Below are positions 1,318 through 42,490 of a stretch of DNA of 64,000 nt, piece by piece. The notes beneath the pieces were generated by a model that did not search any database, was not told the origin of the DNA, and saw only the letters and a list, made by a program, of their open reading frames with translations. Within the stretch, counting starts at the first letter, position 1. Every line of letters starts with the position of its first letter. A program made the position numbers and the translations under genes. Source of the DNA: Sipunculus nudus (lineage: Eukaryota > Annelida > Sipuncula > Golfingiida > Sipunculidae); assembly GCA_026874595.1 (NCBI GenBank), contig CM049316.1, forward strand, positions 65,639,176-65,703,175, read 5' to 3'.

Positions 1318-3766
1318 TTTTTTTTAGCTCAGCTGACTTTCAGTCATGCTGGGCTATAGCGATGGGTCTTTGTCCGTCGTCCTTCCGTCTGTCCGTCCGG
1401 CCGGCCGTCCGGCCGTTTGCAGGGCACAAATCGTAACCGTAGGGGCTAGGGCCATGAACCCTATGCAGTCTTAGAGGTTATAAAAAGATCTCCTTGCAAA
1501 GCTGAAATTAGGTCACTGCGACCTGTATTCTCGAAGTTATGGGGTGTGTTTGCACCCCCCATAAATAACTCTTTGAGACAAAATTTTCATCCAAAACCTT
1601 CCATCTTTCACATACAGCTCACCTACCAACAGGGGAAGAACCATAATTTTTTTTAGGTCAAAAGGTCAAAGGTCAAGGTCACAGGAGCCTCTTCTTTGAA
1701 AAGCCTGTGGATGCATTTTAAGCCAACCCTTTCATCCCAATTCTTTGATCTTTCACATATAGCTAACCTACTAAGTTGGAGAAGAATCCTATAGATTTTG
1801 AGGTAACAAGGTCAAAGGTCAGGGTCACAGGATCCACTTCTTTGAAAAGGTTGTGGACACATTTCAAGCTTGACTTTTCATTCCAAACCTTCCAGCACTG
1901 ATATCGCTTCTCTGCCAACAGGGGAAAAGACCTGTTGATTTTGAGGTCAAAGGTCAAGTTCACAGCACCCACTTCTTGCGTGGAGTCATTTTCAGGCAAA
2001 CTTTTCAATCTGTACCTTCCATCTGTCCTATATGGCTTACCTACCAATAAGGGAAGAAGCCAATTGATGTTGAGGTCAAAAAGTCAAAGGTCAAGGTCAC
2101 AATATTTAATTGTTCTAAATGCTTGTGAGCATATTTCAAGTGTAACTGTTCAACCCAAACCTTCAGTCTTTCACATATGCCACATCTATGCATCTCTCAG
2201 TTTGACTCAAACTTCATATTTATGGGTCTTTTTGCTTGAATAAATAACTTATTGATTTTGGGGTCAGCTGGTCAGCAGGTTAAAGGTTGCAGGTCAAAGT
2301 TATTCACCCATTGGTTGCCAAGTAATTACACCAGATTTAAGTAGTTAGTGGTTACCCATCATTGAGAAAGAATCCAGTTGATATATGGGCAAAAGGCCAA
2401 GGTCATAGGTCAGGGATGTTCACAATTACTTATTTTATAGACTATCTCTATTTTTCTTGTATATATAACCATCCCACTCCAGCTGGTACATCTCCCTGTG
2501 TGGCTGTAATTGTGAGTGACACTGGTGACATATGACTCCCTTTTGTATCAGCCTATTAAGTGATAAGGCTCAGTGATAGGTAACTCGTTACTTCATAACA
2601 AAAACCCTGTTGTCAGAATGCTTCAGCCAGGCATTAAGACTATGAGAGTATAGTATTAAGGTTTAGCTACTGATTTATAAGATGATGGGAACATTTTGCA
2701 GTTTATTTTATGGAATCCTAGCAATAAACTTAGTTTCCTAGATATCTGAATATTTTAATATATATCACCACATATAAAAGCAAGTGTTTGTTCTCATAAT
2801 ATGTGGATGTGTACCTTGATTTAGGATGGCTTTTTGTTTTATTTCAAGACTCTTAGTCATGCTTTCTGCATTTCTTTTCTTTCAGGTTTGGCAGTTTACC
2901 TACCCTGCTGACCCCATTGAAAAGCAGAGTGATAATAAAAAATATTGGACTTACACTTTTTACAATTGCATATCTATAAATCTGATATGAGGGCCTGGAC
3001 ATGCCTTTTGAATTATTTTGGGCATTAATTACTGGATAATTTGCCCCAAGTTTGGTCTCTTATTGGAGAATGTGGGATATCAAATGTCATACTTTCCATT
3101 AAAATCCATTATGTCTGCCAGTTAGCCACCTTAGAAATTCTTTCTTCAGTGCAGTTTCAGTAATTTTTCTTTAATGTTTGGTCCGATTTAGAGAATGTTT
3201 GTTGTCTGATTTCAGACTTGTCAGAAGTCCAATATGGCCAGCAGGCAACCATCTTTTAATTCCTTTTGATCATATTATCTCAAGAACAGTTAAAGTGAAT
3301 GCAGTTGGATGTATATTTAAATGTAATCTTGTAAAGGATTGGGTCAAATATTTCTGAATAAATATTACCATCATTTATAAAAGTGCAGTACAGTTGGCTT
3401 GTATTGAATAAAAATTCATACAGAAGCACCTGTTTCTCAATAATTCTTGCATGTATTTCCTTGATTTTTGCTATATATTTTGATCTTATATTTGCCCTTT
3501 GTGGTGTTCCTTTTGAGACTGACAGGTTTCAAGCAAACTGTTGGAATAGTTCCTGATAGCTTAACAATCATGCATTTTCCTCAGACCATCAATTCACTGT
3601 GTTTTAACCAGACATAGGTGATATATATTTCTGTTGTCATAGAAAATTTTGAACAAATTTGCAAATTGGTTCTTCAAAATTTGACTGGAAGTTGTGAATC
3701 TCAGTCCATGATGTCACAGGTCATGCTTGGCAGCTGAGCATCATGACCCATGGGTCACTTGTATTA
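1318..3766 (+). mobile_element. GTCC-headed dispersed repeat element, copy 1 (non-coding)
   Basis: The left end reads 'tttagctcagctgact', followed by 'gggctatag' and a GTCC/GGCC-rich head at 1370-1420. The right end reads 'cagctgagc', then a palindromic tail 'gacccatgggtc' ending near 3766. The same two ends bracket 17213-19937, and the tail recurs at 4729-4762. Ends are related by the short inverted motif GCTCAGCTG/CAGCTGAGC. No ORF of significance lies inside, so it is non-autonomous or only a remnant. I recognise the head and tail style as typical of bivalve dispersed repeats, but I cannot place it in a superfamily. Confidence 0.55.
1650..2100 (+). repeat. Degenerate ~135-146 bp tandem array with AGGTCAAAGGTCA in each unit
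   Basis: Four diverged units lie inside the dispersed element. Each carries a direct repeat of AGGTCA with one spacer base. Perfect AGGTCAAAGGTCA occurs at 1663-1675, 1809-1821 and 1944-1956, and a one-mismatch version at 2081-2093. The flanking text 'cttctttgaaaag', 'ttccat/ctttcacata' and 'aacaggggaa' also recurs between units. The hexamer arrangement is the DR1 arrangement bound by HNF4/RXR-type nuclear receptors in animals. Whether it is used here is unknown. Confidence 0.65.
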
Positions 3767-4762
3767 AAAATTTATAAAACCTGTAAATAAAAAAATGATT
3801 CAGATAAAAACTTCTTAATGAAAAAAGTGGATATGCTTAAAAAAAATAGGATTATATATAAACTTAAATGCATTATTCCCTTGAAAGTGAAATAAAGGTA
3901 TTAGTCCATTCTGTCCACTTGCCTGTCCATCTGTAAATTTTCATATGCATCACAGTATCTCAAAATTTTACTGGTTTTCTTCATGACAGTCTTGTCAGAG
4001 TATTAGTTTGCAATCATATATTTAGAACTTTACTATAACGAAGTAGGAGGGCCCCTTTCCTCTTAGCTTTTCATATTCTTATATAAATGAAAAACATTAC
4101 AATAGAATATTTCTACATCCACCTTCGTGCTGCCCTCACTTTTCCCTTCTCCAAACCCCATCCCAAAGTCAGCCTCAGTAAGCAAGAACAAGATGAATCA
4201 GATATATTCATACTTTAATATTTTGTATAACTATTCATCCATAGGTACCTATGTACATGCCAGAAATTATGTCAATATTGTGTAATATGTAGACATAGTG
4301 GGCATCACAATAATGTACCTTGTCAAGACTTAAAGAGTTATTGTGTCATACAGTCACAAATTCATAAATCACTTCATCAGCATAGTTAATCATAACATCA
4401 TATCTGTCAAATTGAAAGCTTGCAGACTACCATACACTTTAGATCCTTCAACAAATAGCCTTATCATCATTCTACTACTGCTTATTACTGCTGTCATTGC
4501 ATTCATATTTGCTCAAATATATCACAATTTTCAACCCCTCCTAAATAAATAAAAAATAAACCACTATATTTGACTCTATTTATCCATCAGTCAGGTAATT
4601 TCATTTATCATTTACTCACATATTACATTACATTCCTTTATAATAGCCCAACATGTCCATGATATTCATAAGCTTTATCGACTCGATATAGTATCACAGT
4701 GGAGAAACATTTATAGTACAATCACGATCAGCTGAGCGCCGTGACCCATGGGTCCCTTGTTT
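3767..4762 (+). repeat. Second dispersed-repeat tail segment
   Basis: This AT-rich stretch ends with 'cagctgagcgccgtgaccc' and the perfect palindrome GACCCATGGGTC at 4729-4762, the same terminus found at 3733-3766 and 19905-19937. It looks like the 3' part of a second, overlapping or nested copy of the family. No gene is seen; the short ORF at 4343-4552 has no recognisable domain. Confidence 0.45.
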
Positions 4763-5531
4763 CGTTATGTTTCCATACACCACTCGGCAGTGGAACGTGG
4801 TTAGAATGTGGTGCGGCCAGTAAGTAAGGTTTTGGGTATTTTTTACTCCAGTGAAGAAGCCTTCCAGGTATTTTACAATTATAAGGTGCGGCCATTAGAC
4901 GACGTGCGGCGGCAAAATGCGGATCTATGGTATAATGCTGTATTGCACCAGTTAGCTGAAGTAAGCATTGAAGGTGGGGTACAAAATTTCTGCAAAAGAC
5001 ATTAAGAGAAAGAAAGTAGCAGAAAGGGGGTAACAGGAGGTTAAATCAAACAATTTTAGCTGTAAGCGGGCCATGATGTCTTCATGGTTGGCCATTGCAT
5101 AAATTAAAGGTCATGTGACTGTGAATCATGTGACCTGTCTTGTGATGGCATAAACCAAACCGAGGATATCTAACAGGTCCGAGAAATGATCATTCACCCA
5201 ATTATTGCCAATCCCCTATCCACTGACCAGTCTTCTAAATATTGACCAAATCACCTAAATATTGCCAGTGATTGCCCATGCATAAATCTCTATGGTGCTT
5301 ATTTTTACACCAAGATGTATTTTGGAGAAGTAAACCCTCAAGGGTTGAACTTGAACCACTTCCCTTTTCTTATATAGTGGGTCATATCAGGAGGCATACA
5401 GGAAAATATGTTATACCCCATAAAAAGGAACTTCCTAGTAACCAACATGAGCAGTTAAATATGTATGAAAACATAATGAAAACCTACTTCAAAAAAAGCC
5501 GTCACTAACTAAACGATTTCTGTGTTTGCAG
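4763..5531. other. DGAT1 intron remainder, no gene recognised
   Basis: Two short open frames (4808-5005 and 5272-5508) were inspected as possible upstream DGAT1 exons. Neither encodes the His-Glu-containing segment that should precede the next exon. The stretch ends in a good 3' splice site ('ctgtgtttgcag') at 5520-5531. Confidence 0.5.
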
Positions 5532-5594
5532 TACCTTGTATCTGTTCCACTACGCATGTTCAGAATCTGGGCATTCATGGCTATGCTGTCACAG
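5532..5594 (+). CDS. DGAT1: Diacylglycerol O-acyltransferase 1, penultimate coding exon
   Basis: DGAT1 is an ER multipass enzyme of the MBOAT family that joins diacylglycerol and acyl-CoA to make triacylglycerol. This 63-base exon encodes 21 residues beginning YLVSVPLRMFRIWAF, which matches the segment directly after the catalytic His-Glu of animal DGAT1 (recognised from memory of the vertebrate protein). It is bounded by a 3' splice site 'tttgcag' at 5525-5531 and a consensus 5' splice site 'gtaaga' at 5595. Both boundaries fall between codons, so it joins in frame to the exon at 7322. The preceding exon, which should carry the catalytic histidine, was not found in 1-5531 and is presumed to lie upstream of the window. 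The intron before this exon is therefore over 5.5 kb and repeat-filled. Confidence 0.9.
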
Positions 5595-7321
5595 GTAAGA
5601 AAGGTCATGCTTTTAGAACTCCTTTTTTTAAAGGGAACAGAGCTTATTAAAATCAGTAATCTGAAATGATAAATAATTTTAAAGAATTTATAATTCATAT
5701 CTACTCAGCATCATTAAGTCATAAAATATGGAATGGGTGATTACTTTGTAATGTAAATGTAGATTTTTTTTCCATGATAGAAAACAAAATTTTGTAACTT
5801 CTTTTAACAGAGCTGTCTAAGAGTGAGGCTGCAAATTACCTAAAAGGAACCCTTGTCTCTGAGATCAGATGTATATGTTAGGCATTCATTTGAGATTTAT
5901 ATGGCATTAAATAGTTATTATATATTATTTATGAATGGAAAAGTTTGAAGCTTTAGATGAAAATTTGAAAGTGTCTGAAAAGTTGATCTAAGTTATATAT
6001 GTTATAACATATATAGGGGTAATGCTGCATTTGTTACTGCTCTGAAATATGGTAATTATGAGTTTCCTAGGCTGAGTGGAAAAAAATTTTCGAAACATTA
6101 TCCAATTTGGATGTACCACTTGGTAACTAGGATTTTGCGGAGCATGACGATTAGTCCCACTTAGTGACTTTCACCTTAATTCACTGCTTTTTGAGATGCA
6201 GGGAGCATTTAAAGACACCAATATTTGACTGCTTTACATGAGAGTTTTCAATGTCAAATAAAATTGAACAAATGTGGCATGAAACATATTTTATGGATCA
6301 GTTTCTTTTTGGTTGCTATAACCTTCTAGACATCTGGTCATCGAATCTACTGTCTGGTACCAAATGTTTTCAAGTCGTATGTACAACCTGCCATATAGTG
6401 ATTACTATATTTCCGTGTGGTAACGAACGCAGCATTTAGTGAAGAGCAGCCAATAAACATGATGTTGTGCAGTACTGTCATAAAGAGTTCATAGCAAATG
6501 ATAAATACTATGAAAAATAAACATTATTATGATTATTAACATTGGTATCCAGGCTTTGTCATTGACTTAAAGGGACACATTCAGGAGCATTATTATGCCT
6601 ATTCTTTTTACTCTTATATCAGTTCACTTTTGTTTTATACAAAAGTTTCAAGACAAAAGCATCCCAGCACAGCCTTTTAGTTACTCCCTTTTGGCTATTT
6701 AATACCTAATTATAGTTTTGCTTGTTAGTAAATACAGTCCACATGTGTCTGTTTACAATAACTTGGCCGTGTGACCGCAGGTCCTGATTTGCTCATGTGT
6801 GACAGATCCTAAACAATTTAAGTTTCAGCCAGGGTAACATGTATTATAGTTTTGGGCCAAGTCAGGGCATTACCTGATTGACAGAAGTTTAAGCCCAGGC
6901 AGTGCAGGGAGTTCCATGCGCTCTATTTATGTTGACACCTATGATCATGCAAGGTCCGCTGTTTTTAACACTTGTGTGCAGGAGTATACTGTTTCAGGGG
7001 ATTATTTTGGCAGGTACCAATTTATTTCAAAGAGAAGACAGTATTTTTCATGTTAATTCAAGATGATTTATAGGTGATTAAACCATTTTAAGCTAAGTTA
7101 AGATAAGGGTATTGAAGCAGACTTGTGAACTATAAATTGTAAATTGCACCAGGCACCAACAGTGGCACAAAACATAAACATAGCATGCATGCCTCCTGGT
7201 TTTTCTCAGAAACTTTTGTATTCAGCCAAAATGAGCGAGTAGCCTGAGATTATATACATATTATTTTAAATGATTATATGAACCTTTAATTGATTAAATA
7301 TAATGTTTGCCTTTTCTGTAG

Positions 7322-7468: not shown

Positions 7469-7905
7469 TAACAACAGCCTGTATCTCAAGCATTTCAACA
7501 TAGAGAGTACATGACCACAGCATCAGATGTAGCATGTCAGCAATAGAATGATAATATGACAGCCAGTGTCTCAGCACAGACATTAGATGAATTTTACATC
7601 AGAACTGTAACAACATTAGCAACATTTATGTAACAGCCAGTATCAAAGCAAAGATGGATATAGCACAAATTTGCATATATTAGTTATTGCATCTTATAAT
7701 TAGTCTAAGAAAATGGATGCATAAAAATCATAGCAACAGCAAACTGGTATGTAATAGACATTTATCTTGCCTCTCTGGAAACAGGCTCAAGCTTTAATAG
7801 GTGGAATAATGCAATATTGCCATTCCATTTAGCAATCACATACTGTAAGAGAATCATTGACACCTCATAGAGGATGTAAAGAAAATGCAGTGTTTTTGAA
7901 TCATA

Positions 7906-7911
7906 AATAAA
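7906..7911 (+). terminator. Candidate DGAT1 polyadenylation signal (AATAAA)
   Basis: This canonical AATAAA lies 440 bases past the DGAT1 stop codon, in AT-rich 3' flank. It is the first AATAAA I noticed after the stop. Later AATAAA motifs exist, so a longer 3' UTR is possible. Confidence 0.4.
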
Positions 7912-8705
7912 TGATTAGCAGAGTTTTAAAGTAGGCCATTCCATATTGATGTTTCTTTGTATATAACTTACTGAGTAAATATTATGAATTATATTACCAT
8001 AGCTGGAGTACATGACCAAAATCTAAACTCTGTTCCACTGCTCCTGCACATGTATTTTCTGGGAATGCATTTTATTCAGGCATCTTAGCAAAATTAGGTA
8101 AGTGGGAAATTAATAGAATGAATTTGTGGAATATATCTGTGTGACTTTGCCAGGCATCAGGTATTCCTTTGGCTGTGTTCACAGTTGGCATAGCAGGTAT
8201 ATAGGGTGTTGTGATACTCTGTGTGAAATCATGTCAAATTCCTGGGGATGTACCTTATGTGAAAATATGGAAAAGAACCCCCTTAGGACACACATGGCAT
8301 CGGTTGGAGGCAATACTACAGGGGCATCACACAACAATGATTAAATATCACAACCAAATTTAACAAATTCTTTACTTTCCAATTCACTGTTCAAATTTTT
8401 CCAAAAATTGCAAGATTTCTCTTCGGATCTCAGCTAATGATGCTTTCTGAACAGAAAAATCATCATGGGGAAAGCAGGACAACAGGGTTTGTGGAACAGA
8501 TTATAAATACAAAGGGTACCTCTGTAAAACGCAAAATAGCCAGTATGCAGTTCAGGGAGAACTTACCAAGCTTAAGTGCTGTTTTATTTTCATTGTTCAT
8601 ATTGTTTGATGTCAGTTAATATAACTATGTTTGTTGAAAGTTATTTTTGTAAAATGTGCTTTCTAACAAGTTAATAATACCAAAGTAATGAATTTGGATA
8701 ATTGA

Positions 8706-8708
<3 letters not shown>

Positions 8709-8757
<49 letters not shown>
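8709..8757. repeat. (TA)n microsatellite
   Basis: About 24 uninterrupted AT dinucleotides, ending where the pattern breaks to 'aata'. Confidence 0.97.
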
Positions 8758-8761
<4 letters not shown>

Positions 8762-10782
8762 CAGCTTAAGAATATTTTTCATGTTTTGTATGAAAGAGTA
8801 CAGTGCATATAGTATATGTCATAACAAAGTCATATATTGTGCCATGACAATCATGCCTAATGTTGTAAATCTCCACAAGAGGTCACTCTGCAAATGAACT
8901 TTATTTTTACTTTTCATGCCCTCATTTCACCCCACCATGTTGAAAATAGACCATATGGGAAATAAATTCCAGTTTGAGTAGAGCCTGTTATTCCAAATCA
9001 ATGCAAAAATTGTTTCTATAGAAGTGAATACAATTACTTGAGTGTGGTGGCATTCAAATAACTGGGCTTGTTAATACTAGAAAAAAAAGACAGTAGCTGT
9101 ATTGTGAAGTCCAGAAGTTGATGCAGGGGGGTTTCAGCCACCACAACTTTCTATTAAGGGTTTTAGACCAATGTTTGTAATCTAGACCCCCCCCCCCCTT
9201 TCAAGAGCTTGGGACTTAACATTAGTCCTCCTGGGTTGGACACCCCCTTTTCCTAAACCCAGGATTTTTACCCTGAAATCTCCATTGTACTTACAGCAAG
9301 ATTTTGCAGAAATACCTTATATTATGACATAGGAAAGAAGATTTAGGTAGTAATTAATATCTCAGAGTTTATCTCAGATGGAATATGTTCTGGGAAAGAT
9401 AATTTTTGGAGCATCATTACTGTAATGTGTTGTCTATCTCTGAAATACTGAAGCATGCATTTGTCATTGTATTACATAGCAACTGTTTTCCTACCAGATT
9501 CGCATAGCTATACATGTATATTTATCAATGTAACCGGTGAGGATAGAGTACTTGTGGTTAACTTTGTTGTGTTTTTACAATTGTTGAAACAATGGAACAA
9601 TAAATGTCATCGTAAATGATCTATGACAGTGTTAATGTAATAAAAATACAATATGTATATTACAAAATATCAGAGTCATTGTTATGATAATATACAATAC
9701 ATAGTGTAATATTATTGTAATCATAATCCATTTCACATATAATGCAATGATGTGTACTATTGTCCTCACCATGACACCACGGATACATGACTGAATGATG
9801 AAATAAATGAAATGATAATTAAAAAAAAAAAATTGCACTGAGATGTTTACCATGTAGTTTTGTCTTACATGTGCCCTGTTGTGTCAAGGCCTTTGATCAT
9901 GTAATTTTATGTGTTGGACAAGCTATAATTTCTGAAAAATATAATTAAGTGCATGTTAATAAATTTAAATGAAAATCCAACAATTTATAATTGATTGTGT
10001 ACAATGCTAATACAGATTGTTACAGCAGATTGATAAATTATCAAGTTGATCTTTCTTTGAGAAGGACAGCTGTCAATGATCCATTTTCCCAGTTTTCCAA
10101 CTTCTTTCACAGACAATTTTGAAAAAAAAACAAAAAGGATTTGAAGCAGAAATATAGGCCTTCTATAGGAAAACTTCAAGAATTTGACAATATATTTTCA
10201 GAAGCCATTTTCATTTTCACTTTAACTGTACTACATCTTTACTTAAATATTTAGTTTTGTAGCTGTTGTATGTCCTTTGTGAAAAAAAATATACCAGGAA
10301 ATATATCCTATATGTGTGAGTTTGTTAAATAACAAGGTTAGTTCTGAGATTTTTTAAGAAACAAGAGTTGTTTCAAGAAATCAAGACCAATCATGGCATT
10401 CCATTTTGTGCAGATTTTTTGTAAGATTTGTAATTTTTGTAAATAATTAATAGGCACAAACATGAACAATTTACACAATTTTAGAACAGACAATTAGGTT
10501 ACATTTCCATGTTTTAAAGTAGGTTGCACTGATGTATTTTCTGCAATATATGTGTCAATCCTACAGGAGGGTGCTAGAGGAGACTTGCAGTAGAAAATTT
10601 TAAGGCTATTTACACTGGTGTTTGTTGTTTATGTTCAGTTTTATATGTTCTTCAGTAATGGTTTTCAATATATATTTTCACAGCAATGTCTTTCATAGCT
10701 CTTTGTATATCAAGGTCAGTTTGTGCTAAAATATTTCAGTGAATATATGACCATACTGCTAATCTACATAACTTCCAAAAAT

Positions 10783-17212: not shown

Positions 17213-19937
17213 TTTTAGCTCAGCTGACTATAAGTCATCTGAGCTATAGTCGTGGTCCATTGTCCGTCGTCCGTCCGTCTGTCCGTCCGTCCGTCCGTCC
17301 GTCCGTCCGTCCGTAGATGTGGCACGTTTTGAAACCGTAAGACCTAGGAATCCAAAATCCGGCATAATGTTAGATGTCCCCAAGATCTCCTACCAAGCCG
17401 AAAACTGGGTCTTTTCGACTTCGTTCCTTTGAGAAATTAAGGAAAAACCTGAATTTTTCATTAAAAACCTATTTTCACACTTCAGGACTGCCTAATATCA
17501 AAACCACTCATCTGTTTTTCCTCATATTTACCATAAATATTCCTCTATATAGTTCCTATGTACATTCAAGAAAATATGTCTGTATTATATAATTTAAAAA
17601 AGTTATGGACCCAAACATAATGCATTTTGTAAAAAATCAGGAAAGATATTTGATCACTTAACACAAAACATGTTAAAGCTATGGACCTTTCTTCCAGTAA
17701 TATAACTTTAATTAATCAAAATTAAATTGTATACCCAAAATTAGATGAAAATCTTTTAAATTTTTTAAAATATTAATAAAAATAAAAAATTGGTACCTTA
17801 AATTTTGCCCAACTTTGACCATGGCACGTTTTTTTCCTGTAAGTACTGTGGATTTAATTTTCACAGCATGTTTTTGTTACCTTTTCAACTGTTAACACCA
17901 AAAATTTGAAACCAGTTGATCAAAAACTGTAGATTTTATTCAAGTTTTCAAGCACCATGTAACATATTGTATACATCAAGCTAGTGTTATGCAGTTTGCA
18001 AGAGCTCAGCTCCCCAGCTTCAGCTCTTAGTTCCTTAAATTCGGCATACAGCTAGATGTCTCCAAAATCCCCTACCATGCCAACAATTTGGTCACTAGGA
18101 CTTAATACCTTCAAGATATTAATGAAAAACTTCATTTTTCCATTAAAAACCCATTGTTACACTTCAAGACTGCCTAATATCAAAACCACTGATCTGACTT
18201 TAATCATAAATAATATACATATTTTTTCCATTAAAAACCCATTGTTACACTTCAAGACTGCCTAATATCAAAACCACTGATCTGACTTTAATCATAAATA
18301 ATATACATATTTTTCTGCACATGCCAGAATGATGTCAGTATTGCGTAATTGTTTTAAGTTATGGGCCCAAACATAATGCACTTTGTAAAAAATCAAGAAA
18401 TATATTTACTCCCTTAACAAGGGGATTGCTGAAGCTAGAGATTTTTTGTCAGGGATGTAACATTATTTAATCAAGATTCAATTGAATACCCAAAATTAGT
18501 TATGAATTTTTCAAATTTTATAAGTTATTAGTATAAATGTAAAATTAGTAACTTAAATTTTGCCCAACTTTGACCATGGCACGTTTGTTTCCTGTGAGCA
18601 CTGTTGATATAATTTTCATATCATGCACACATAAGGATTTCAGCTTTTAAGTTTAGAAAGCTGAAAGAAATTGGCCAAAAATTGTAGCTTTTATTAATGT
18701 TTTTATGAGACCCTGTCAGACTTTGGCTCTCTCCAGCCCCTCTTGAGTCACCTGTATGTTGACCTTGTTGACCTTTCATCAAATTATGCATTCTTGAGGT
18801 GAGGCATACAGGGAATCCAGGCAGCTTATGGCCAGCCACAGTTGATCCAGGTGTCCAACCCAACTCATCTAGTAGTTTTAACCAACTACATACAATAAAC
18901 AATAAATTAATAAATTTTTATTGGTTTTTAATAAAAAATTAATGAAAAATAGAAAAGGAATTTGTTAGTTTATTATAACAGGATATTAACTTGCAGTTAC
19001 TGATGATATAAGAATCTTGTATCGATGGATAGAATGTCACATATTCCAAATAACACCATGCAGTCACCTATGGCATTTTTCAGTTCAATTTTAATGATAA
19101 AGAAGTAAATCATATCATTCATTACTAATCATTAGGGATCATATGATGGAAATTAATGATAGACAAAGATGCATTTGATAATATTAATCTAGATTCCTAC
19201 TGTGTCTAGTGTGTACATTGATGTGAAATTAGTCCAAAATGAATTTATTACAGTTATTTTTTAATATAAATAAAAGCCATAAAACCAGGTACTTATGATC
19301 GTTATTTAAATGTGTGAATTTTGTATATTCTGGATTCTCAACATCATTGTTTGGTGAAAACTGAATAAATACCAGACATGGTGAGAATACTTTGTAATTG
19401 TATTTAAATACGAATATGATTATGTACTCCATTATAAAATTTCTTGCATAAAGAATGGGAATTCAGGTAAAAATGAAAGTATATGAATACCAGTGCAAAT
19501 ACTTTCAAAATGTATTCATGAATGCATTCATGAATAAATTCTTTAATATTATTTTAATAATCATTTCAGTTATATTTCATTTTAAAAAATCATATGATTC
19601 TCTTATTATTTTTAATAAAAATTATATTTGGGACAATATTTGTATTTTTTTTTAATTAATAGTTAAACCCTTATATTATATATTCTGCTTATAAGTTATA
19701 TTGCCAAGTCAAAATCTGTGTGACAATAGTACTCCATTTGTTAATAAAATAAATGAAATCAATCCTCTTCCCTTTCTCCAAAAGTACTATCAAAATCATA
19801 CATAAGATAAACAACAACAACTCATATTACAGCTTATATTTATTACCACACAAAAACCAGCATGTGCCTCATTTCTAAATAATATTTTTTTATCATATAT
19901 AACAGCTGAGCGTCGTGACCCATAGGTCCCTTGTTTG
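17213..19937 (+). mobile_element. GTCC-headed dispersed repeat element, copy 2
   Basis: It starts 'tttttagctcagctgact', then 'tgagctatagtcg' and a (GTCC)n head at 17264-17315, and ends with 'cagctgagcgtcgtgacc' near 19937. Inside are two diverged copies of a ~680 bp module (from about 17369 and 18049), also seen at window positions 1-620. Each module carries 'ctgcctaatatcaaaacc' and 'tttgaccatggcacgttt'. No ORF suggests a transposase or reverse transcriptase. It sits inside the MRPS17 intron. Confidence 0.55.
18140..18314. repeat. Recent 88 bp tandem duplication
   Basis: Two head-to-tail copies (18140-18227 and 18228-18314) are identical by eye apart from one T in a terminal run. They lie within the second module of the dispersed element. 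The near-perfect identity contrasts with the diverged modules around it, so this duplication is young. Confidence 0.88.
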
Positions 19938-21150: not shown

Positions 21151-21338
21151 ATATAACGGGGAAGTAAGAGGCAGATAAAAATAAGAGGCTTTAATTAAAA
21201 TTCAGGCAGCAGGACATAAACTGTTCACAGAAATGTTGTGCATCCGAGAGGTGCGTGAATTATTCTACAGTCGTGCCAATCAATCGATCGATCCATCCAT
21301 CAACCCTTATGGTTATAACATTAACAATCACCAAATTG

Positions 21339-22434
21339 GGGAGGGTATAATTCGCTGATCAGCGCGCTGATCAGCGGTCTGCAGTATAAAACGCTGATCA
21401 GCGCGCTGATCAGCCATCTTTCAATTAAAGCATTAATTTGAGGCAAATTATCTCCCATATAGCAACATCCGCCTATTTTGTGATAAAATATGATTAAAAG
21501 ACACCTTTCCTATCGGTATTACATATTTACAAACATATGCATATATTTTTATTGTGTTCATAATTATACATGAAACGCAAGTTACCTGCCAGTGACTATT
21601 TCGCTGATCAGCGGCGCTGATCATGAACCTTTCAATCCAAGCATTTATTTTAGACAAATAAGCCCCATATAACAACCTCCGACTATTATGTGATTAAATG
21701 TGATTAAAAGATACATATTCTATAAGTGTTTTATATTCACAAACAACGAAAACACTTTTAATGTGTTACTTAATATGCATGAAACCTTTCTACCACCTAT
21801 ATCGCTGATCAGCAAACTGGGCAATCGCTCATCGGCAATGATTTACGTACTTCTTGACTATGATTCCTGTCATCTGTGATTCTCTATAATGGTTATATTG
21901 AAGGTTCTCAGTTGTTTTACTTATACCCTGTGAAACCGAGTGATTGCCAATGCATCGCCCATACCAGGCTACTTCATATACAACTTTAAAATATCAGTGC
22001 CCCACCGACCACTCGGAGATATTAGTTAACAGCGCTGCAGTAATTTGTTGTCAGGTGTTCACTGGCCAGATGACTGAAGTGAGATCAATAGGTGAGATAT
22101 ACACTTAGTATGAATGTATATAAAATTTGAATTTATCAAAAATAAAAATGTTAAATGTATATAGCCTTAATAAAAGACTGATTATCCTCTTATTTTTATT
22201 AAGAACTGTACGTATATAGCCTAAGGATTCTTTCATTCTTCATGTACAATATAATCGTTCCTTAAAAACTTTCACAAGTTTCTTTACATCCCTCTTATAT
22301 TTCCCTTTTTTGCATTTAACAAGTTGGTCGCCAGAATCTTTTTCAAAACCTTTATATAGATGATCTGATCGATTTTAACTTGATGTTGATAGATTACTCC
22401 TGTTTTAATCCCACATATATATATTATATTATAT

Positions 22435-22478
<44 letters not shown>

Positions 22479-24599
22479 TGAAGTAACGTCAAAGAATAAC
22501 TCCACAAAAAATATTATCGGTATTTATTTTTTTTTCATTTTATAACAGGACATTTCCATTATTTTGTAAAAATGTCCGCATATCTATTGCTTTAACATCG
22601 TTACTTATATATTTCTAAAAAAAATGATTGGAATAGGAATGCTTTTCATAGTTTTGGAAAACAGTATATACTATCAACATAAATATACTGAGTACTAGAA
22701 AGGTTGAAGGAGTAATTACTTTTAATTACAACACTATAATAAATCATCACCGTTTCTTTTTTAACTTTTAAGGGTAGTGAATGCCGATAAACGGTGTTAA
22801 AACAATAAGGTAACAGGATGGATGTAACATCTAAATTTTACAATGGCATTGTTATTCAAAACTTCATCGTTTTTATAGTGTGTTAGCCTGTTAGGTATTA
22901 TAAAATATTAAACTTTTAAAATATTTATTATAAAAGAAGTCTGCATGCTTTAAGTAATAAATTTGCCAATGATTTCATTTATTTTAATTCAACACAGTTC
23001 TTCTTCTTTAACACCGTTATATGTTGAAATAGGCATAATTTCAAGAAATAAATAAAATGACTTAGAAACATATTAGAAAATTATTTTATCGCTAACATTT
23101 TTATTGACCGAGGAAGATTGCTATAAATTTCCCTTCTATATTTATTGCACTATACCTTCTGTGGGTTGCAGTTTTATTTTGTTTCAGGATATAATCGGAA
23201 CACATTAAAATTAAGAATACGCAGTTTACAAGGTTAAAATATATTTTTAATAAACAATACATCGTACAAGTGAACCTTCCATATTTTTTCTAAATAAATT
23301 ATGCGGGACCGCGCAAGTCACAGTGTTGAAATTGATGATACACTTGTAGGGCATTAAATTAGCCGAAACTATAATTCAACATGAAGTACCTGCTCTGATG
23401 AAAGAAATTATATATACCAGTAGTTTACATTTTTATTGCCACAATAGACTCCATAAAATAAATATTTAGATGTTATTTTTCAGATGCTGTATACCTGCTG
23501 AAATGGGAAGTTTTTCGTAGAAAGACCCTTCCATTAAATTGTATATCCTTTGACGGTTACTTTAGGAAAACGACTCAATATGTCTTCTTCTAAATAATTA
23601 ATGATTGCCCTCTCACTTTTGTCTGATCAAAAAACACCTTGTCTTACCAGTTTCTATAAAGGCCTCCTTTTAAATCAATTTTTTTTTTTAAATCAACAAT
23701 ATTACCGATTGCAAAAAAGTCCACAGTCCACAATATTTTGCTGTTGGTTCATTAGTGGCATTTTCACTTAAATATATGTGCAAGATATTGTTAATAAATT
23801 AAATTTTTAAATTCATTCAAACTTAATTTTAATTTCAGCTATTTTTATCACCTGGCCGGTGAAAATCTACCAGCAAATTACTGCAGCGCCCCCTACCGTT
23901 AGCTAATGTCTCCTGTGGGGAACAGATTTTTGTAAATTGTATGTCATTGTGGTACGATGTTTAGTCAGTCATTCGGTTTTCACAGGAAATAATTAAGTAA
24001 AACAACTGAGAGGCTTATATGTTACCATTATAGAGAATCACAGATGACAGGTATCATAGTCATAAATACGTAAGTCATTGCCGATGAGCACTATATCAGC
24101 GTCAAGGCTCAAGCGATTGCGCAGTTTGCTGATCAGCGAAATAGGTGGTAGAAAGGTTTCATGCATAATAAGTAACATATTAAAAGTGTTTTCGTTGTTT
24201 GTGAATATGAAACACTTATAGAATATGTATTTTTAAATCATATTTAATCACACAATAGTCGGAGGTTGTTACATGGGGGCTAATTTGTCTAAAATAAATG
24301 CCTGGATTGAAAGGTTCCTAATCAGCGCCCCTGATCAGCGAAATAGTTACTGGCAGGTAACTTGCGTTTCATGTATAATTATGAACACACAAAAAATGCA
24401 TAAATTTGTAAATACGTAATACTGAAAAGAAAGGTGTCTTTTAATCATATTTAAACACAAAATAGGCGGAGGTTGCTATATTGGAGATAATTTGCCTCAA
24501 ATAAATGCTTTAATTGAAAGGTGGCTGATCAGCGCGCTGATCAGCGTTTTATACTGCAGACCGCTGATCAGCGCGCTGATCAGCGAATTATACCCTCCC
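21339..24599. mobile_element. 3.3 kb foldback-type DNA transposon with ~750 bp inverted arms
   Basis: The element starts GGGAGGGTATAATTCGC and ends with its exact reverse complement. Both sides are flanked by a perfect 9-bp target duplication ACCAAATTG (21330-21338 and 24600-24608). The arms cover about 21339-22090 and 23845-24599 and are recognisably inverted along their length. Each arm contains tandem units of about 205 bp beginning with the 12-bp palindrome CGCTGATCAGCG. That palindrome is doubled at the outermost positions (21353-21376 and about 21392-21415 on the left; 24524-24546 and 24562-24585 on the right). The 1.75 kb centre is AT-rich, holds a (TA)n run and has no credible ORF, so the copy is non-autonomous. 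Tandem units in long inverted arms plus a 9-bp duplication fit the foldback / Mutator-like pattern. It sits in the MRPS17 intron, 63 bases past the exon 1 donor. Confidence 0.88.
22415..22474. repeat. (TA)n microsatellite with TATAT interruptions
   Basis: AT run broken by a few 'attat' units, in the unpaired centre of the foldback element. Confidence 0.95.
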
Positions 24600-24662
24600 A
24601 CCAAATTGTGGGAGCCCCAAATGATCACCGACACTGTGAGCGATATTAGATGAATAACTCAC

Positions 24663-34793: not shown

Positions 34794-37225
34794 TTAAAGA
34801 AGTCCTGACCGCAGGCGTGACCAAAATTGGGACACACTGTTGGTCAAGTCTTCCTCTGGCCAAACAAGGTAAGTGTGACGTCTCATAATGTCTAAAAGCG
34901 TTTGCGGCACATCATTAGATCGAACGTCCTCGAGCAAAATGACAATAATTTTATCAATTCCCCTTTCCATCATATGTTCCCGATTCATATGCATTTCAAA
35001 TTTACACCAAGCACTTCGAACAAAATGTCGTGACAGCACAATGATCGTTTTGCGACTCGTGGATAGAGCGCGCAAAATGTATTCTTCGATAGGCCATCCA
35101 ACTTCAAAATCCCTGTAATGAACAAAAAGGCGAAATGGGGTCTCTCCGCCTTCCATGTTAGGGATAAGATGACTGATTACCCATTGAATATTCTTCTCGC
35201 TGTAGGCCACGAAGGCATCGTATTGAAAATTTCCTTTTTCTTCGAATAATTCAGCATACAGTTCACGCCGAATTTTCAGACGGAGGCAAAAATATTTCAT
35301 GCCCCATGTGCGACAATAATCACAATATATTATAAATAATAGTGTCAAACAAACGATGACGATGGCAAGTATACTTAATATTAAGTACAACCATTCCATG
35401 TTTAAACACTGACGTTCAAGTTTAGGCAGAATGTCTTTTTGCAGCAGGGAGAAGGGTATATTTTGCCCTTGAAGATTACATGATATATCCGAAAAGTTAG
35501 CCAGGTTACGTCGGTATCGGTACAGCCATCTGAGAAAATATAACGATCTACATGAGCATTCTATCGGGTTGCCCCTCAGGTCCAGTTCAAACCTCTCATC
35601 CGCTGTCCGATTTCTCTTAATTACATTACTCAGCACGGAGAGAACTTGTCTATTTAGGTAGGTTATTATGTTCATTGAAACGTTGAGAAGGCCCAGATTA
35701 CTCAAATAAGTGACACCCTGTGAACTGAGGTCGGTTATTCTGTTGTTTGAAAGGTCAAGAGTTACCAGATTTATCAAACCAGTGATACCGGGAGGAATAT
35801 CAAGTAAATTGTTATTTTTTTAATATCAGGACCCCTAAACGAGGATGGGTTGAAGTGTTGAAAATATTTCGTGATATAGTATAGATATTGTTGTTACTCA
35901 GATCTAAATATTCTATATTATGTAAATAAGGAAATGCTCCTCCGTCCATCGACAAGAGACCCCCAAGATTGTTGTAGGAAAAGTCTATATAAACAATAGC
36001 TGCTGCCAAGTTCTTACCAAAAGCATTCTTTGAGAGATAGCGGCAATCGTTTCTAGAAAAAATCGATATGCAGCCCATTTCCTGGATTGCACAGTTCAAT
36101 GCTTCCGAAAATATACAAAAATTGATTGCGGCCTATACCTATGAATACATTTCTGATAAATCCCTGGTTCCATAAGTACAAATTAAAACTTGGCGGAACC
36201 GATGTGACACCAAATGTATCATAGGCAACTAAACGAGTAAGACTTGTAGGCCAGTAAAACAATGATTGGGTGTAAAGGTTGGCGTTTTGTAATGATAGGT
36301 TGCTGGTGTTCTTATCATGAACCGAATCAATTGCAGATAGTTTAAGAAAAGTATTAGACTGTATGCTGCATATGTTGTATAGAGATACGTGGATTGTACC
36401 TGAAGAACTAAGCATTTTCATATCTTGATGGTAATTTCTTCCTTGCTTGGTGCCGCCAACAGGCAAGGTTTGATAGCTTATGTCGAGAATTTTTAAACGT
36501 TCCAATCCAAATAAAAATGTGTATGTAAACAAATGGTTCATATAAAGGTCGAGTTCCTCTAAATTTGGTGTATATGCACCAAAAGAGCCGCGGATGTAAC
36601 AAATAAAATTTTCACGGAGGAAAAGTTTCCTGAGTGAAGGAGCTTTGATTGATTCAAGGACAGAAATCGTGATGTCTTTTTTAGAACATTCGTTCATCGG
36701 TGTTATACCAGAAAGATTCAATATATTTAGTTTCCCTTTTGGAAGAGAACGCATAAAGTATATCAAAGTGCGATATCTATTCTCCCCTAAAAAAGTCCTG
36801 GACATGTCTAGTTCCACCAAATTTATGAGGGGTGCCATGGCATCAGACATGTTTACTTGCTCTTCATCCAACCCGAGGAAATTGTCACTGAGATCTAATA
36901 ACTGTAACCGCGACAGACCCTGGAATGCTTCTGTATCCAAAACTTTGATTTTCGATTTCCGCAGCTGTAACTTAATTAAATTGAGACATTTGGCAAAAGT
37001 ATTGTTCTTTACCCTGGATATATTGTTTCCAGACAGTATAAATTCTGTGACGTTATCTTGACATAATTTCGGTATCTCGGTCATCCCTAGGTTGCTGCAG
37101 TTAACCCTCATGAATGCGCCAGTACTTGTACAACGACATGGAGCGCACCTTTTGGACTGTACTTTGGAACTAAAAACTATATATGCCAAAAGAATGACAT
37201 ATATAAGTGATAAGGTAAAGCTCAT
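34794..37225 (-). CDS. Toll-like receptor, single coding exon, frame broken by two +1 indels
   Basis: Type I membrane receptor of innate immunity: LRRs outside, TIR inside for MyD88-type adaptors. The ATG is at 37225-37223; a hydrophobic signal peptide covers residues 1-24. A cysteine-rich N-cap (CAPCRC) and LRRs follow (e.g. LQLLDLSDNFLGL, LEELDLYMNHLF). After residue ~369, near 36117-36121, the frame shifts by one base into a second block carrying IEYLDLSNNNIY. It shifts again at the seven-base run 35815-35821 into the last block. That block holds LVTLDLSNNRI, an LRR C-cap (NPIECSC...), a membrane span (last-block residues 129-151) and a TIR domain (184-325) with box 1 YDAFVAYS, box 2 RDFEVGWPIEE and box 3 FW. 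Stop is TAA at 34796-34794. Removing one base at each site would give about 809 residues, normal for a single-cysteine-cluster TLR. The breaks could be assembly errors in homopolymers or a null allele. Box 2 has Val where Pro is usual. Confidence 0.88.
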
Positions 37226-37330
37226 TTTTGGTCTCTCTTCAAGTTGTTAGGAGATAAATCCTGAGATGCAGGGTATACCTTTCCGTGACTCAAACGTCCT
37301 CCATCCCTAGATCAGCTGAAACAGTTTGCC
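37226..37330 (-). other. Predicted 5' UTR part of the TLR coding exon
   Basis: On the - strand 'tatactttatttgcag' ends at 37331, a good 3' splice site, 105 bases before the TLR ATG. The intervening bases contain no in-frame upstream Met extending the protein. Many TLR genes have an intron in the 5' UTR and an otherwise intronless coding region. Confidence 0.4.
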
Positions 37331-41700: not shown

Positions 41701-42220
41701 AACTAAAACGTCTAAAAATAACTTAAATATCAAATGACATAAATAGCAAAGACTTGTTTATCTTCTCAGTTTTAAATCTATATCGATTTTTAAAGTAGGT
41801 CCGTTAAATGTATACAATAAAATATTTTCTAAATCGCATCTCCTATCAAAGTCTATAACTTTTAGGCGTTATCTATCGATATTTCCCCAACCAAAATTCA
41901 GCAGTTTTGCAGTATATTTGAAGCAGTTTTTCAGTAGATAGCCGGAGCAGTGTATTCAGCAGGTCTGCAGCAGGTATTCAGCACATTTACAGCATATGCT
42001 CTTTATGTGCTCCAAGACCTATGGATTATATGCAGCAAGTCTGCTCAACTCTTACCATGTATAATGCTGTATTGCGCAGCAGATTTTGAACAGCGATGGA
42101 ATCCATGGTAATATATGGTTCTAATTCGAACTTCTCACTATCAAAATAAGATCTGATACCGCTAAACAGGTTGGATAACCAGTTTAAACATATTATCGAG
42201 GACCTGGCTTACACACATAC
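38721..42220. other. No gene recognised; contains a 30-bp perfect palindrome
   Basis: AT-rich sequence with scattered short ORFs (e.g. 39428-39652 -, 40740-40988 +, 41174-41422 +) lacking domains. The only distinct structure is the palindrome at 40533-40562. Confidence 0.4.
40533..40562. repeat. Perfect 30-bp palindrome centred on AGATCT
   Basis: The sequence from TGGCATTCATATAGA to its exact reverse complement has no spacer. The chance of a perfect 30-bp palindrome in random DNA of this size is very small. It may be the relic of a tiny hairpin insertion. Confidence 0.9.
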
Positions 42221-42490
42221 ACTTTTCTAACCATTTCACAAAGCTCTCAATAGATGGCGCTGTCACACACACAAAAACAAATTTCAAGCAAAACGTTCTT
42301 TCTAGGAACTTGAAAGAAACTTCCCCAGCATAGTTTTCCCCAGCCTTTTTAATGCACTTTTCTAACCATTTCACAAAGCTCTCAATAGATGGCGCTGTCA
42401 CACACACAAAAACAAATTTCAAGCAAAACGTTATTTCTAAGAACTTGAAAGAAACTTCCCCAGCATAGATTTCCCCAGCCTTTTTAATGC
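42221..42490. repeat. 135 bp tandem duplication
   Basis: Two head-to-tail copies (42221-42355 and 42356-42490) differ by only a few bases (for example 'cgttctttctagg' versus 'cgttatttctaag'). The unit contains 'tagatggcgctgtcac'. Because 135 is divisible by three, the - strand ORF 42162-42422 shows an internally repeated peptide, but there is no sign of a real gene. Confidence 0.9.

Follow-up and report, generated by a model that had tools for sequence, protein, structure and literature searches.

A 3,261-bp element at positions 21339..24599 of the 64,000-nucleotide stretch of Sipunculus nudus DNA analysed here (hereafter the window) is, we think it likely, a non-autonomous foldback-type DNA transposon, moved by a Mutator-like transposase that acts in trans, with palindromes as putative binding sites and with arms that recombine. 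The element type is already known, and the family itself is a foldback-type representative with recent movement; what is new here, as read from the alignment of its copies, is that the inner arms retain their left/right identity while the outer arms were exchanged.

The element opens and closes with GGGAGGGTATAATTCGC, which a pattern search of the window finds exactly at 21339-21355 (+) and 24583-24599 (-), with no third site in the window when up to three mismatches are allowed; in 100 shuffles the mean was 0.07 matches, and two matches occurred in 0/100. The outermost 14 bp are the tip GGGAGGGTATAATT (left, 21339..21352, +), of which 10/14 columns are invariant over 33 arms, and its exact inverted copy (right, 24586..24599, -). 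On both flanks lies ACCAAATTG (21330..21338 and 24600..24608), a perfect 9-bp target-site duplication. The exact inverted ends and the perfect duplication had both been claimed in the original prediction and both hold, as does its claim that no transposase lies inside: no coding capacity is seen in the element, and the longest open stretch of its AT-rich, non-coding core (22145..23785; 27% G+C vs 35% for the window) is 63 aa, equalled or exceeded in 206/300 shuffles. A coding core was ruled out on these chance-length open stretches and on Pfam, which gave no match (E up to 1) in two element frames. Rfam at gathering thresholds gave 0 matches over the whole window, IMG/VR exact-pattern searches returned 0 and 0, and a tandem-repeat scan found nothing inside the element besides the palindrome modules and a run of AT. 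A core match of some extent is present in 18/19 other element sequences examined, the exception being the 322-bp L050.

The inverted arms align by BLAST over ~806 bp (1-806 vs 2448-3261 of the element, 82.0%), about the ~750 bp that had been predicted; the left arm (~806 bp) occupies 21339..22144 (+) and the right arm (~814 bp) 23786..24599 (-). They are two-tiered, with a change point at position 555 (LLR 43.8; maximum over 1000 shuffles 8.2), outside which 34/550 positions are mismatched and inside which 78/239 are. The left inner arm (21894..22144, +), with its 78/239 mismatches against the right one, is left-type in the close copies discussed below, and the right inner arm (23786..24022, -) has an approximate outer boundary, transferred by hand from the left-arm change point. 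The tandem ~205-bp units of the original prediction are present at 201-210 bp, but each arm holds two full units and no more: on the left unit 1 (210 bp, 21392..21601, +) and unit 2 (201 bp, 21602..21802, +), on the right unit 1 (206 bp, 24341..24546, -) and unit 2 (202 bp, 24139..24340, -). Same-place units of the two arms share 92.7% and 93.0% identity and adjacent units of one arm 76.5% and 75.6%; since the same unit is ~93% alike across arms and neighbours are ~76% alike, the unit duplication predates the last common state of the arms.

With up to two mismatches the palindrome CGCTGATCAGCG has 12 matches in the window, 12/12 of them within the element (0.47 expected). The nesting of palindromes, the outermost doubled, was also correctly foreseen: each 62-bp terminal module carries two doublets (left module, 21353..21414, +, with doublet 21353-21376, 15-bp spacer 21377-21391 and doublet 21392-21414; right module, 24524..24585, -, again doublet, spacer, doublet), and the module is predicted to fold into a 23-bp stem (as DNA; -34.8 kcal/mol, z -8.7). 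Judged by eye, the modules vary in number, with a single doublet at one end of L041 and L050 and additional spacer-palindrome modules in L042. All three of these copies retain perfect 9-bp duplications; an altered module number in an inserted copy could equally be a later internal loss, which would look the same.

Measured over 33 arms at positions 1-475, in copies that had been selected for resembling positions 1-209, the tip and palindrome columns have a mean variability of 0.018 vs 0.055 for the rest, with 10/474 circular shifts as extreme. Least variable are the outer doublet (0.004; 21/24 columns invariant over the 33 arms), the spacer (0.012), the tip (0.013) and the second doublet (0.020); the unit bodies have means of 0.052 and 0.062. 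Palindrome C is low as well (0.013 over its 12 bp), and palindrome D, at 0.059, varies like the unit bodies, which makes it less likely that every palindrome has the same role. The 15-bp spacer is no more variable than the palindromes, which indicates that conservation extends to the module as a whole. By analogy with Galileo, whose arm repeats bind a transposase domain in a binding assay according to the sections of PMC3688188 used here, the palindromes of this element are candidate transposase sites.

Other copies were sought in the window's own assembly (1.43 Gb; one genome, one assembly). A 24-bp tip pattern with up to two mismatches has 266 matches genome-wide (130 forward, 136 reverse), the same pattern reversed as a control has 0 and 0, and the exact tip with a pyrimidine before it occurs at 75 places. 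From the listed matches at least 136 exact ends have a known position; 80 of these 136 form 40 facing pairs less than 15 kb apart, 478 to 12031 bp long, with 14 of the 40 at 3.1-3.3 kb and 8 at 3.5-3.75 kb. We read 20 regions of ~10 kb, from the 35 non-window places given by the 40 best arms; they were selected for their resemblance to the outermost 209 bp of the window copy's left arm and are therefore best matches, not a random sample. Both ends were in hand in 17 of the 20 regions, which with the window copy gives 18 complete copies.

The 9-bp target duplication is perfect in 16 of these 18, and L035 and L046 match at 8/9; among mispaired flanks, taken as a control, 0/306 reach 8 or more of 9. 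When the same assembly was searched for the outcome that would have told against the original prediction (no further copies, or copies with other boundaries and without 9-bp duplications), what it yielded was copies that share boundaries and target duplications and that have long, internally repetitive arms, so the foldback interpretation is supported. A local duplication can yield long inverted repeats, but that the structure is no transposon at all and reflects an inverted duplication (by chance or segmental) or a misassembly is extremely improbable in the face of 266 tip matches and of 9-bp duplications of unrelated sequence in 18/18 complete copies, two with one mismatch.

Several of these copies are nearly identical. 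Leaving gaps out, L031 and L032 share 99.9% identity on different contigs with different duplications, L036 and L038 share 99.8% at different places, again with different duplications, and the window copy is 97.6-98.1% identical to L031, L032, L034, L035 and L037. Near-identical copies at different sites with different duplications point to recent movement. The longest open stretch in each of the 20 element sequences, of which L043, L045 and L048 are not whole, is 54-125 aa; as the copies are non-autonomous yet lately mobilised, a working transposase was presumably present in the lineage not long ago. Dating copies by arm-vs-arm divergence was dropped, because left/right differences are inherited within a lineage.

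Some features of individual copies and their sites are recorded here in their own right. The left tip of L038 is without GGGA beside a perfect 9-bp duplication, from either a cut at the second GGG or a later loss by slippage. Around the insertion sites of the 18 copies G+C is 43.1% within 30 bp vs 36.3% farther off, a value reached by 4/2000 random sets. In L033 (G000:C2:70857059-70867000; 677-1909 and ~7564-8808) a LINE (reverse transcriptase E 2.9e-36) interrupts an element copy, and ~1.23 kb of the element is repeated in direct orientation on its two sides (98.2%, 11 mismatches/1245 columns); LINE target duplications are usually far shorter than this. At the 5' edge of this LINE stands DVETNPGP, which we take to be a 2A-like motif. 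L042 (G000:C10:65119604-65129500) carries a second, nested element of ~2.7 kb at ~3252-5967, in a right-arm palindrome; its inverted repeats are ~480 bp long (95.5%), its tips read GGTCTCCCGAAACACCC, and an exact target duplication was looked for and not found.

The original prediction had further linked the element to Mutator-like elements (MULEs), and we infer that the foldback-type element described here is probably mobilised by a MULE. Its 9-bp duplication, found in 18/18 copies (two with one mismatch), falls within the 8-11 bp given for MULEs in the portion of PMC6446971 consulted, and it has a GGG tip; conserved G/C bases are reported for most arthropod MULE tips in the corresponding portion of PMC13359780. 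An autonomous MULE partner was looked for in the genome and not found, so it is the length of the duplication, together with the GGG tip, that carries the Mutator link. In that search, made with PF10551 on the genome, 150/252 candidates were scored, giving at least 131 places. None of the 131 scored places lies less than 85 kb from any of the 136 exact ends, or from any of 147 ends when arms are added; as there are 266 pattern matches and 147 located ends, many ends fall outside this distance test. Within the copies themselves no coding capacity was seen in 20 sequences; the longest three of the 40 facing pairs (9.3, 9.5 and 12 kb) and the eight pairs of 3.5-3.75 kb lie outside this set.

Three candidates for an autonomous copy or partner were tried and rejected. 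The 6.4-kb tip pair C8:54569251-54575612 has the usual core and unmatched sequence inside its left arm, and the part of it in L051 contains no open stretch >103 aa; the 5966-bp L042 owes its extra length to the nested element; and the MULE places with a 607-aa frame include none within 85 kb of located ends. As a separate observation, 34 MULE-domain rows share 47.6 bits and the 607-aa open frame, and 9 more rows share the frame length; these 607-aa rows are possibly a recently active MULE family.

Mobilisation by a transposase from a different superfamily, such as a P/Galileo-like or Merlin-like one, the foldback form having evolved independently, seems to us unlikely. The P element itself makes 8-bp duplications, and Merlin duplication length does not rule out a Merlin-like transposase. 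In a freer search L035 and L046 (2/18) can also be read with an 8-bp duplication displaced from an end by one base, and chance neighbours lengthen the duplication of a few other copies to 10-11 bp; directly at the ends, however, an exact 7- or 8-bp duplication is found in 0/18 copies and an exact 9-bp one in 16/18, and the MULE domains counted above are abundant in the genome. Foldback-like arms did arise outside Mutator, since the P-superfamily Galileo has long, internally repetitive arms (by the available parts of PMC3573991 and PMC3688188), and no MULE partner with these tips was seen near the located ends, but Galileo duplications are 7 bp long (PMC3573991).

For the history of the arms, copies were oriented by their cores and arms were compared in 17 copies, at 71 left/right marker sites defined from five close copies (window, L031, L034, L035, L037). 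In the inner-arm tree (28 rows) left and right are parted by one change (support 92/87), a split that is, on the sequences compared, an old polarity. The unit-1 tree (33 rows), whose support is modest, with 4/25 inner branches starred and the bootstrap not settled, requires seven changes of side, a number that still marks clustering by side (shuffled mean 11.3, with 3/500 as low).

The clearest exchange is seen in L039 and L041. In unit 1 their core-left arm is right-type at 12/13 sites and their core-right arm left-type at 12/13 sites, and their inner right arm is right-type at 20/21 sites present; the switch of type falls between positions 286 and 350, and the unit-1 tree places the right-type arm on the core-left side among right arms (98/93). 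Because unit 1 is mostly left-type on both sides in older lineages, the left type is probably ancestral, and the more informative half of the swap is the right-type core-left arm. Unit 2 and the inner segment are missing from that arm, so that of the two junctions which a swap should leave only one is readable. The swap is one shared event, and from the distribution of marker types it is best explained by a crossover between inverted arms, which would have flipped the core. The duplications of L039 and L041 differ (CGTAACATA and CCAACTCGC, both perfect 9-bp), and as both carry the flip, each at its own site, the element has transposed again after flipping.

In L046 the outer arms are alike at 99.1% in unit 1 and 98.3% in unit 2, vs 89-95% against the window arms, and its two unit-1 arms group together (98/95). 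In L047 the arms are 97.7% alike in unit 1 and 69% in unit 2. These similarities in L046 and L047 suggest that outer arm parts have been made alike, piecewise. In L040 it is the inner arms that are 93.0% alike, with unit 1 at 86.2%, and its right inner arm sits with left ones on a well-supported branch (100/99). The window copy's step at 555 agrees with exchange that affects the outer part and seldom reaches the inner one, and from these patterns together we infer recombination between arms.

The same end products would, however, be given by template switching in gap repair after excision, or by exchange between copies, in place of crossover and conversion within one element, and we allow this a sizeable minority share of the probability. 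Interrupted repair would leave an arm incomplete, as one arm of L039 and L041 is, and ectopic recombination and conversion among copies are what the authors on Galileo invoke in the part of PMC3573991 that we cite. Against this, both outer arms of L039 and L041 are exchanged relative to one core, which a single inversion explains in one step, and the unit-1 arms of L046 group with each other. We put forward, tentatively and at a little short of an even chance, the fuller proposal that the arms are standing recombination sites: that an outer crossover flips the core, that conversion makes the outer arms alike again but leaves each inner arm on its own side, and that flipped isomers stay mobile and found sublineages. 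Arm exchange, beyond mutation, would then shape the family, and matched palindromic ends would be kept in step.

In the mechanism that we propose, a Mutator-like transposase made elsewhere in the genome would bind the tip and the palindromes as a dimer, cut beside the GGG tip and insert the element with a 9-bp stagger. Each end would gain transposase sites from the 62-bp doublet module and from the additional palindromes spaced ~200 bp apart. Because they are long inverted repeats, the arms could also recombine: a crossover would flip the core against the outer arms, conversion or gap repair would make the outer arms alike, and the recombined forms would stay mobile.

Known systems resemble this element in part, as far as the portions of their published accounts cited here describe them. 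Muta1, an active type 2 foldback MULE of Aedes aegypti, is by description alike in its subterminal tandem repeats (12 bp), inverted ends, 8- or 9-bp duplications and many derivatives with variable interiors, but it has 145-bp arms and encodes a transposase (PMC5225508), whereas this element has ~806-bp arms, 12-bp perfect palindromes in doublets, then ~205-bp units, and no coding copy found. Tetris of Drosophila virilis (PMC4079207) is described as a non-coding foldback element with ~220-bp tandem units, long arms and 8-10-bp duplications; its autonomous partner is unknown and it was placed in Mutator on duplication length. Its arms reach 1,735 bp, with a variable unit number, and it seeded satellite arrays, in contrast to the two units per arm found here. 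Tm1 of root-knot nematodes (PMC3169594) is likewise described with composite arms, a variable tandem motif, mostly 9-bp duplications and several kinds of interior, and differs in its asymmetric 7-bp end motifs, in its repeats of ~14 bp and in that a copy with a Phantom-type transposase is known. Galileo, for which arm recombination has also been proposed (PMC3573991, PMC3688188), belongs to the P superfamily with its 7-bp duplications, and its chimeric copies are reported without matching duplications, unlike L039 and L041.

Within the MULE literature, the MULE-related Rehavkus has 9-bp duplications, a PHD finger in the transposase and a minisatellite before the 3' arm (PMC6446971); of these, the 9-bp duplication is present here, and the tandem scan gave only the palindrome modules and AT run already mentioned. 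A molluscan group is on record with 48- and 296-bp arms (PMC6446971). Among plant MULEs, those with tandem arms amplified successfully, and the authors credit this to better transposase recognition or interaction with the transposase (PMC3310237). In the available portion of PMC8268682, one of the papers that name both foldback transposons and molluscs, the single mention of foldback elements is a reference to Tetris. As far as literature text goes, the family may be undescribed, as the original prediction suggested: four strings of its tip and palindrome sequence have no match there.

The family addresses the general question of why DNA transposons grow long, internally repeated arms. One genome offers ~266 recognisable ends, recent copies that are nearly identical, inner arms whose sites tell left from right, and outer arms that have been exchanged; in it the shares of crossover, conversion and end-site selection could be counted. 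The missing autonomous partner is, among the located ends, a concrete search problem.

Elsewhere in the window, three overlapping open stretches at 34794-37246 (-) encode leucine-rich repeats and a TIR domain (Pfam TIR E 1e-16), which in layout resemble a Toll-like receptor, as far as the translated sequence goes. Two further tandem repeats, each of two copies, lie at 18135-18314 (88 bp, 100% matches) and at 42220-42490 (135 bp, 97%).
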